From positions 1-64,000 of the forward strand of contig NZ_JAFLNL010000015.1 of assembly GCF_017313785.1 (NCBI RefSeq): a stretch of DNA of 64,000 nt, read 5' to 3'. Made by a program: the position numbers and the translations under genes. This stretch comes from Flagellimonas aurea. Its GTDB lineage: Bacteria; Bacteroidota; Bacteroidia; Flavobacteriales; Flavobacteriaceae. This document shows, piece after piece, positions 5,980 through 7,864 of this stretch (within the stretch, counting starts at the first letter, position 1; the number at the start of each line of letters is the position of its first letter). The notes below the pieces were generated by a model. That model ran no database searches, was not told the DNA's origin, and saw nothing but the letters and a program-made list of their open reading frames with translations.

Positions 5980-6765
5980 ATGTTGAACAGTGATTTTGAA
6001 CTTTTAAAAATTGGCGATACTTCTGCTTTGGACCATATCCATACCAAATACTTTAGGAGTATACTTTGGATAGGCAAGCAATGGCTCAAGGATGAATTTT
6101 TAATAGAATCCCTTGTCCAAGATACCTTTTTAAAATTATGGATCAATAGGGACAAATTGGAATCACCTGAGCACATTTTCTATTTCTTGAGGTTTGTGAT
6201 GAAAAGGGAGTGTATCTCATATTATAGAAAACCAAAATATAGGTTCCACAAGAAGGTCAACTCTCTGGAGGATTATGACAATTACCAAGACTACATGGCA
6301 GGGTATGATCCGGTAAATGATTCCGAAAACCTCGATGATCAGGAATCGACACAAAAAACCTTCGACCATATCAAAAGTATATTTCCCCTGTTGAATGCCG
6401 ATAAAAGGCATTTGATCGAACTCTGTTTAAAATATGGCTTCCAGTACAAGGCTATTTCCAAGGTAATGGGTAAAGGCATCATTGAAACTAGCAGGGAAAT
6501 AAAGGAAACCATTGAAGATATAAAAACCATAGTCCATCAAGGAAACAAACTCGATTCCAGTGACAACATGACAAATGAAATCAAGTTCAGTGGAGAGCTG
6601 AGCGAAGAGCAGGCAAAAGTTCTTAAAATGCGCTGTGAACTGAAATATTCCTTTTCTGAAATAGCCAAAGAACTTGAACTGTCCCAAAAGGAAGTCCATC
6701 AGGAATTCATGAAAGCTTATAGGCTAATGAAGGCAAATCATCAATTGCAATTACAATCAGCTTAA
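5980..6765 (+). CDS. ECF-like sigma factor with a doubled sigma-4 region, partner of dCas12f
   Basis: A 261-residue protein, about 70 residues longer than a usual ECF sigma factor. Region 2 spans about residues 15-82, with the signature [12 protein letters not shown] at 43-54. A sigma-4-like helix-turn-helix lies at about 137-182. After a linker a second one lies at about 205-251 ([18 protein letters not shown], then [15 protein letters not shown]). It ends one base before the ATG of the Cas12f homologue, so the two are co-translated and probably work together. Normal ECF factors bind promoters themselves; here the partner suggests that an RNA-guided protein brings the sigma factor and RNA polymerase to DNA. 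No anti-sigma gene is adjacent, which is unusual for the class. The doubled sigma-4 is seen directly; its role is inferred. Confidence 0.85.
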
Positions 6766-6766
6766 T

Positions 6767-7864
6767 ATGGGAAAGTCAACGCTAAAACACACTAGAAAGA
6801 TTCAATTATTGATCGACCTCCCTACCAAGGACGAAAAAAAAGAGGTTATGGATATGATGTACCAGTGGCGGGACCGATGCTTTAGAGCAGCCAACCTCAT
6901 AGTAACCCATCTGTATGTTCAGGAAATGATAAAGGAATTCTCTTATCTATCCGAGGGAATAAAATATAAATTGGCTGATGAAAAAAAAGACGAAAAAGGA
7001 ATTCTTAATCGTTCTAGGATAAACACTACCTATCGATTGGTATCTGATCGATTCAAAGGAGAAATCCCGACAAACATATTGTCCACCCTAAACCATGGCT
7101 TAATCTCCTCATTCAATAAAAATAGGATTCAATACTGGAAGGGCGAACGCTCATTGCCGAATTTCAAGAAGGACATGGCATTTCCTTTTGGCTTGCAGGG
7201 TATAAGTCGGATTGTCTATGATGAAGAGAAGAAAGCCTTTTGCTTCCGTTTGTACCGGGTTCCATTTAAAACCTACTTGGGCAAGGATTTTACCGACAAA
7301 CGAATGCTGTTGGAGCGTTTGGTAAAAGGTGATGTCAAGTTATGTGCTTCGAATATTAAACTGAATGGCGGAAAAATCTTTTGGTTGGCGGTGTTTGAAA
7401 TCGAAAAGGAAAAGCATATCCTAAAACCAGAGGTCATCGCAGAAGCATCATTGTCCTTGGAATATCCCATAGTTGTGAAGACAGGAAAAAACAGACTCAC
7501 AATCGGCACCAAGGAAGAATTCCTTTATCGTAGGCTGGCCATACAGGCAGCCCGGAGAAGGGCTCAGGTTGGAGCGACCTATTCCAGATCAGGGAAAGGG
7601 TGTAAACGAAAAGTTAAAGCAGTGAACAAGTACCATAAAACAGAGAGTAACTACGTATCACACCGCATACATGTATACAGTAGAAAACTTATAGATTTCT
7701 GTATCAAGCATCAGGCGGGAACGCTTATTTTAATGAACCAAGAGGACAAGGTCGGGATTGCCAAAGAAGAAGAATTTGTATTAAGGAACTGGAGCTATTA
7801 TGAGCTAATGACCAAAATAAAATACAAGGCAGAGAAAGCAGGCATTGAGCTGATTACTGCATGA
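6767..7864 (+). CDS. Nuclease-dead, C-terminally truncated Cas12f homologue (dCas12f)
   Basis: A 365-residue protein that follows the Cas12f1 plan. The N-terminal recognition/wedge region has IPTNILSTLNHGLISSF (100-116) and KGERSLPNFKKD (125-136), like the KxxxSxPSYKxD stretch of Cas12f. The RuvC fold starts near 222. Where Cas12f/TnpB have GIDLG this protein reads EASLSLEY (226-233), with Ser for the catalytic Asp. Where they have QMED it reads LMNQED (322-327), with Asn for Glu. The helix NWSYYELMTKIKYKAEKAGI (341-360) matches the conserved NWxYYxLQxKIxYKAExxGI, and the protein then stops, lacking the CxxC zinc finger and third Asp. It should bind guide RNA and DNA but not cut. It lies 1 bp behind a sigma gene and ahead of a candidate guide RNA, with no Cas1/Cas2 or array. 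I infer an RNA-guided transcription activator. Confidence 0.88.
   Translation: MGKSTLKHTRKIQLLIDLPTKDEKKEVMDMMYQWRDRCFRAANLIVTHLYVQEMIKEFSYLSEGIKYKLADEKKDEKGILNRSRINTTYRLVSDRFKGEIPTNILSTLNHGLISSFNKNRIQYWKGERSLPNFKKDMAFPFGLQGISRIVYDEEKKAFCFRLYRVPFKTYLGKDFTDKRMLLERLVKGDVKLCASNIKLNGGKIFWLAVFEIEKEKHILKPEVIAEASLSLEYPIVVKTGKNRLTIGTKEEFLYRRLAIQAARRRAQVGATYSRSGKGCKRKVKAVNKYHKTESNYVSHRIHVYSRKLIDFCIKHQAGTLILMNQEDKVGIAKEEEFVLRNWSYYELMTKIKYKAEKAGIELITA

Follow-up and report, generated by a model that had tools for sequence, protein, structure and literature searches.

The closest described relative of the locus analyzed here is the nuclease-dead Cas12f (dCas12f)-sigmaE system of Allomuricauda taeanensis (Allomuricauda/Flagellimonas), which reportedly activates transcription. 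Our subject is a two-gene operon at 5980..7864 of the first 64,000 nucleotides of contig NZ_JAFLNL010000015.1 of Flagellimonas aurea; this whole stretch is called the window. The operon is very probably a dCas12f-sigmaE RNA-guided transcription system that has leaders of susC-susD operons as its natural targets and is carried on a mobilizable island. Its sigma factor has 92% identity, and its dCas12f 95% identity, to the A. taeanensis counterpart. The A. taeanensis system is represented by PDB entries 9n9c, 9n9m, 9n9o and 9n9q. Entries 9n9c ('Cryo-EM structure of the dCas12f-gRNA complex') and 9n9m ('Cryo-EM structure of the dCas12f-gRNA-DNA complex (partial R-Loop)') were released in December 2025, and 9n9q also contains an RpoE chain. 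The dCas12f of A. taeanensis JCM 17757 (L005) is identical to chain 9n9c_A over 365 residues, so guide RNA (gRNA) binding and R-loop formation are established for a relative with 95% identity. With structures for a near-identical pair, the kind of system is already known, as a preliminary description of this DNA had suspected, and by its sequence the window locus is a further member. The two systems agree in operon order, gRNA family and island, and A. taeanensis has a susC site of the same kind. Between the guides a single position out of 20 differs (C instead of T at position 11). The A. taeanensis system belongs to another genome, and the sites in the window genome have diverged. The literature searched contained no paper on this dCas12f-sigmaE system. 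Preprints of 2025 are said to give G as the target-adjacent motif (TAM) and a transcription start about 46 bp from it.

Active Cas12f proteins (type V-F; PDB entries 9nzo and 7wju) have an intact RuvC acidic triad and a zinc end, whereas the window protein lacks the RuvC-I Asp and the C-terminal end. It also has a sigma partner, and no CRISPR array was found in its island. TldR proteins repress transcription, derive from TnpB rather than Cas12f and are not known to have a sigma partner, whereas a sigma gene shares the operon of the window protein. TldR proteins are like the window protein in being RuvC-inactivated RNA-guided transcription regulators, and nuclease-dead TnpB homologues that act as repressors are known (PMC13418256). 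The window locus combines three features of dCas12f-sigmaE systems: a Cas12f homologue with inactivated RuvC, an extracytoplasmic function (ECF) sigma gene in the operon and a dedicated gRNA gene without an array.

The sigma-dCas12f operon

Two open reading frames (ORFs) on the + strand, 5980-6765 (261 aa) and 6767-7864 (365 aa), lie 1 bp apart.

5980..6765, + strand: ECF (sigmaE-type) sigma factor, 261 aa (Pfam; PDB 9n9q_C, E 3.2e-161)
6767..7864, + strand: nuclease-dead Cas12f homologue, 365 aa (PDB 9n9c_A, E 8.8e-235; RuvC-I D to S228)

The ORFs and the Pfam and PDB matches agree with the preliminary description of an ECF sigma gene followed by a Cas12f1-like gene. Sigma70_r2 and Sigma70_r4 both exceed their Pfam cut-offs in the first product, and its PDB match above is the RpoE chain of 9n9q. 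In a phmmer search of the PDB, the second product matches 'Nuclease-deactivated Cas12f' (9n9c and three further entries), and active Cas12f more weakly (1.3e-37). The PDB matches are Cas12f/TnpB chains, but the TnpB/Cas12f domain scores are under the Pfam and NCBIfam cut-offs.

The predicted loss of the RuvC-I Asp is borne out by the alignment to 9nzo, which places Ser228 at this position. With the same active homologue (506 aa) the alignment stops at its residue 414. The window dCas12f therefore lacks the C-terminal TNB/zinc/RuvC-III end, again as described before. The RuvC-II Glu had been read as changed to Asn; this loss is not settled, because the residue opposite the Glu differs by alignment, M323 with 9nzo and E326 in a gapped alignment with 7wju. 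The helix NWSYYELMTKIKYKAE, noted earlier as conserved, is kept across 18 aligned sequences. The predicted structure of dCas12f is poor (mean pLDDT 55.1) and usable just for part of the C-terminal half; its comparison with the PDB served for entry titles and not for the RuvC-II question.

Among 31 related dCas12f loci, collected in one scan of genome contigs, the sigma gene lies 5' of dCas12f on the same strand in all 31, with a gap of at most 150 nt in 28 (the gap is larger in L010, L022 and L029). A direct-repeat search of 2950-9965 gave two short two-copy families and nothing more, and the reported absence of a CRISPR array holds for that stretch. The companion claim on Cas1/Cas2 is narrower than first put: neither was among the window proteins run through Pfam/NCBIfam, and no whole-window scan was made.

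The guide RNA gene

A gRNA gene that the preliminary description had missed lies directly 3' of the dCas12f gene.

7876..7945, + strand: gRNA scaffold with three stem-loops (34-sequence alignment and fold; model match E 2.6e-21)
7946..7965, + strand: guide TTGTGGGATACACGCTAACA, taken as 20 nt, beginning after the conserved CATACAAC end (comparison of 31 loci and the window)

Comparison of the sequences 3' of the dCas12f genes reveals a conserved RNA of about 70 nt with three stems. Stem 3 covaries, with changes on both sides in 34 chosen copies that were aligned and folded. With 150 candidates scored per genome (150 of 1073 in the window genome), the gRNA model finds one copy in the window genome and 1-12 copies in nine others. 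Rfam on 5000-10500 gives just a sub-threshold Yfr10 match at 5507-5576.

One gRNA was picked per locus, and the 32 guides from the 31 loci and the window fall into 18 of class 1 (GCGTGGGCT type), five of class 2 (TTGTGGGAT type, including that of the window) and nine others. Several of these nine loci have a class-1-like guide in another gRNA copy. The identical 20-nt guide of the window is present in three genomes, the window genome (G000), A. abyssi (G001) and Allomuricauda sp. NAT111 (G002, which is also G199). A. abyssi also carries a second sigma-dCas12f operon (L120, C28:58919), which has a class-1 guide and lies at a distance of about 9 kb from the class-2 operon; the dCas12f of this second operon is 77% identical to that of the window.

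Leaders of susC-type genes as candidate targets of class-2 guides

The window guide was searched over 16 nt in five genomes, and the figures that follow refer to the matches listed. Apart from gRNAs, three of these have a single mismatch, two in A. abyssi and one in G002. These three, two of the seven G002 matches with two mismatches and one site in G003 all belong to one conserved leader 5' of a SusC-type gene. The leader sites of the three genomes are each preceded by G. In A. abyssi and G002 together, five leader sites combine one or two mismatches of 16 with a preceding G, and a sixth (G199) has four mismatches. The guide of G003 itself has three mismatches of 16 with its leader site.

The window genome contains the same leader four times, with the site 299-307 bp 5' of a susC-type ORF. 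Each of the four is followed by two ORFs of susD- and peptidase-like length (one clipped by the end of the fetched stretch), and Pfam on one of these operons finds TonB receptor plug, SusD and Met-zincin domains. At no more than three mismatches the genome gives 62 matches, among them the gRNA and three leader sites, and the reversed pattern gives 37. Of the 81,984 positions in the 41 kb of sequence surrounding the four operons, just these three leader sites match at this level. Of 60 genomes of the genus, 14 have dCas12f and 30 have the class-2 leader. The leader is present in 13 of the 14 genomes with dCas12f and in 17 of the 46 without (Fisher p 4e-4, kinship not corrected). Those 14 genomes hold 15 gRNAs, 12 of class 1 and three of class 2. 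At 49 of 59 class-2 sites the base before the protospacer is G.

Several points weigh against susC leaders as the natural targets. The four sites in the window genome are imperfect, with 3, 3, 3 and 5 mismatches of 16, and two of them are preceded by T instead of G. Apart from the gRNA, no match in the window genome has two or fewer mismatches over 16 nt. Eight of the listed two-mismatch matches (three in A. abyssi, five in G002) are located elsewhere than in these leaders. Even where the genome has no class-2 guide, 33 of 48 leader sites still match it at no more than three mismatches of 16, so site conservation alone is no proof of targeting. Given the imperfect matches, any activation in the window genome could be weak or strong.

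A perfect target in the window genome was considered and rejected; over 20 nt there is nothing within three mismatches except the gRNA itself. No target of the window guide was found inside the window. In a susC leader of a further locus, L039, a short ORF at about 1292-1486 has its end immediately 5' of the class-2 site. Its DNA is conserved in sister leaders, and it may encode a leader peptide.

The class-1 leader element

A second conserved leader, an element of about 100 nt, stands before the sigma gene of the window operon itself.

5748..5848, + strand: class-1 leader element, a T-tailed hairpin with the class-1 protospacer as its 5' arm (R2 E 1.5e-22, with the window copy in the training alignment; covariation; fold)
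5773..5791, + strand: hairpin 5' arm GGGCGTGAGCTTACTTATT, the class-1 protospacer after a 5'-G
5821..5841, + strand: hairpin 3' arm, followed by a T-rich tail

In five of the 31 loci (L006, L007, L008, L009 and L011) a guide matches a site 167-212 bp 5' of the locus's own sigma gene with one mismatch of 16 and G before it. Such a site is found near the own sigma gene at two to three mismatches in L017, L018, L028 and L030, and for the other loci the 16-nt search listed no site within three mismatches near the sigma gene. In the window genome no second gRNA fitting the class-1 site before the sigma gene was found among the 150 of 1073 candidates scored. Searched in six genomes at up to two mismatches, the class-1 pattern gives 45 matches (17 for the reversed pattern), 16 of them exact. 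One exact match is a gRNA, and the other 15 are all within this one conserved element. Judged from the ORFs seen, these 15 copies precede sigma genes of RNA-guided transcription (RGT), SusC-type genes and others.

Among 149 Flavobacteriaceae genomes the element is present in 31 and dCas12f in eight, and none of these eight lacks the element (p 1.6e-6, without correction for kinship). Divergent dCas12f proteins were considered as an explanation of the leaders in guide-less genomes and rejected. In 23 genomes that have the element, dCas12f gave no match at 1e-20; for 22 of them there is no match at E 0.001 either, and one has a fragment of 52 residues. The element has no Rfam match over it, and it stands before susC-type, ECF sigma and other genes, including in genomes where dCas12f was not found.

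Structure and geometry of the leader hairpins

Both classes of site form hairpins. In 37 aligned class-1 sites 96.5% of the cells are paired, a value biased upward because the structure was written from one sequence and the sites were found by an expression wanting similar arms; far fewer pairs remain when the structure is slid. Covariation involves seven pairs, with 18 cells changed on both sides, compared with 2.9 and 4.9 in shuffles, and none of 500 shuffles is as high. For class 2, ten sites give 97.8% pairing and three covarying pairs (seven cells, compared with 2.2; 0 of 500). In the larger set, 59 sites from 63 loci (four gave none), 57 pair at eight or more of nine positions, taking the best of 18 offsets per site; with the same procedure, 500 swaps give a mean of 45.5 and a maximum of 51. 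Although the classes show no apparent sequence relationship, they share a spacing of 45-51 nt from the first base of the protospacer to the start of the 3' arm, about where guided transcription reportedly begins. An upstream arm pairing with the protospacer (hairpin 1) was tried as an antiterminator and rejected, with 94.7% of cells paired but covariation not above the shuffles.

In genomes without a class-2 guide, 46 of 48 class-2 sites pair at eight or more of nine positions. The sites are present and paired where there is no guide, so they are leader structures independent of the guides. The guides seem to be aimed at such independent structures, and we infer that the leader elements are older than the guides.

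The class-1 element may be an intrinsic terminator or attenuator of transcripts from upstream promoters. A guided start past the 5' arm would then escape it, because the new transcript would lack the 5' arm, the terminator could not form and transcription would read into the gene; activating the gene and escaping attenuation would be a single event. We propose this bypass tentatively, as an addition to RNA-guided activation that we think somewhat doubtful. It fits the covariation of the hairpin and the T tail: in 36 of 37 sites, T makes up at least four of the 8 nt that follow the 3' arm. The 3' arm begins 46-50 nt after protospacer nucleotide 1 in all 37 sites, near the start distance of about 46 that is reported, and folding of the window copy suggests that RNA starting at the 3' arm does not refold the hairpin. 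However, a consensus terminator scan with a loop limit of 8 nt did not report the class-1 hairpin, and its yield of terminator-like sites was close to that from shuffled sequence (3 compared with 2.5). The window copy also has an interrupted T run (CTCTTTAT). Moreover, the window's own guide is of class 2, and the class-2 hairpin has no T tail, so a bypass there would have to act on something besides an intrinsic terminator.

Proposed mechanism and alternative explanations

In the mechanism that we propose, dCas12f would load the RNA from 7876-7965, bind DNA beside a 5'-G and form an R-loop without cutting. The sigma factor would bring RNA polymerase, and transcription would start at a fixed distance downstream. 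The natural targets would be leaders of susC-susD operons for outer-membrane uptake. With the guide aimed at a conserved leader element common to several operons, one RNA could address a regulon, and the whole set would travel on the mobilizable island. Binding, polymerase recruitment and activation at the window locus are what we infer. The 92% and 95% identity to the A. taeanensis pair supports the earlier proposal of an RNA-guided protein bringing RNA polymerase to chosen sites.

The imperfect sites could also mean that the operon is mainly selfish cargo in the window strain, with a guide that fits hosts like A. abyssi better, drifted targets and weak or absent regulation. The best leader site has one mismatch with the genome's own guide in A. 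abyssi and G199 and three in the window genome and G003, and the island with its relaxase and integrase is found in four other genomes. But the ORFs are intact, the same 20-nt guide is kept in three genomes, and A. taeanensis, the source of the solved pair, has three mismatches as well; we regard this explanation as unlikely.

It is very unlikely that the gRNA acts on RNA, as an antisense antiterminator that pairs with the leader's 3' arm and opens the hairpin, whether or not dCas12f takes part. The guide resembles the 5' arm and so can pair with the 3' arm, and G-U pairs, as expected of RNA, are retained in the leader structure. However, a guide acting on RNA needs no TAM, yet 49 of the 59 class-2 sites are preceded by G, a base that is itself part of the hairpin, and the relative with 95% identity was solved with DNA in a partial R-loop. 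Least probable of all is a TldR-like repressor that blocks susC transcription, for although repressing nuclease-dead TnpB homologues are known (PMC13418256), the sigma gene lies 5' on the same strand in all 31 loci and an RpoE chain is present in an entry of the 95% relative.

The RNA-guided activation that we favor may go further in its details. In these Flavobacteriaceae, RNA-guided transcription may be aimed, rather than at arbitrary promoters, at two independent conserved leader hairpins, those of susC-type genes and of its own operon, with the guide copying the 5' arm, transcription starting at the 3' arm and the terminator skipped. This extended form is possible rather than probable.

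The mobilizable island and neighboring genes

The stretch 2953-9961 is best read as an integrative mobilizable element that carries the sigma-dCas12f system as cargo.

2953..9961: integrative mobilizable island of about 7 kb, with the system as cargo (91-95% nucleotide identity with L003, L004, L005 and L020)
3070..4092, - strand: MobB family relaxase (NCBIfam NF041495, 367 bits, cut-off 200)
4098..4682, - strand: ORF adjoining mobB, conserved in the four related islands; putative mobilization accessory gene
5281..5580, - strand: small helix-turn-helix (HTH)-like protein, 99% identical in the four related islands (weak Pfam HTH_26 match under the cut-off)
8041..8334, + strand: small ORF with a weak sub-cut-off DUF6814 match, present in two of the four related islands (L003 and L005)
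8483..9733, - strand: tyrosine recombinase (integrase) of the island (Pfam Phage_integrase, 9.5e-20)

The right ends of the islands are all at 9960/9961 and the left ends at 2910-2959, and the fetched flanks of the four loci do not match. In L005 and L020 the right end lies inside the 3' end of a tRNA-Pro(tgg) gene. No attachment-site direct repeats of 11 nt or longer were found for the island in the window. Among the 31 related loci, L003, L004, L005 and L020 are the only ones in which integrase and relaxase are both close to those of the window. L013 has the relaxase only, and L008 has an integrase with 66% identity beside another tRNA-Pro. A few other loci have weaker integrase or relaxase matches, and the rest have neither within the fetched flanks.

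The island is adjoined at 10779-17135 by Bacteroidetes conjugative-transposon genes (TraM-like under the cut-off, TraG P-loop domain). An ArsR-type regulator and a MerTP mercury transport fusion are encoded at 458-1428. The stretch 20001-26074 looks like a DNA-modification or defense cluster. It encodes an AAA/SMC-like ATPase and, judged solely by visual inspection, a GHKL-like ATPase together with a 3'-phosphoadenosine 5'-phosphosulfate (PAPS)-reductase-like protein.

Implications

The gRNA gene, the candidate targets, the status as cargo of a mobile island and the second guide class with a covarying leader hairpin are new here. They connect an RNA-guided system of solved structure with a candidate natural regulon and suggest that the natural guides have an apparent target type, conserved leader hairpins with fixed geometry. 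They could also explain how a single guide might bring several susCD operons under control when it enters a new host. If the extended form is true, the guided transcript would begin with sequence complementary to the guide, and a mobile island with a single guide could gain control of an entire uptake regulon in every host with these leaders.
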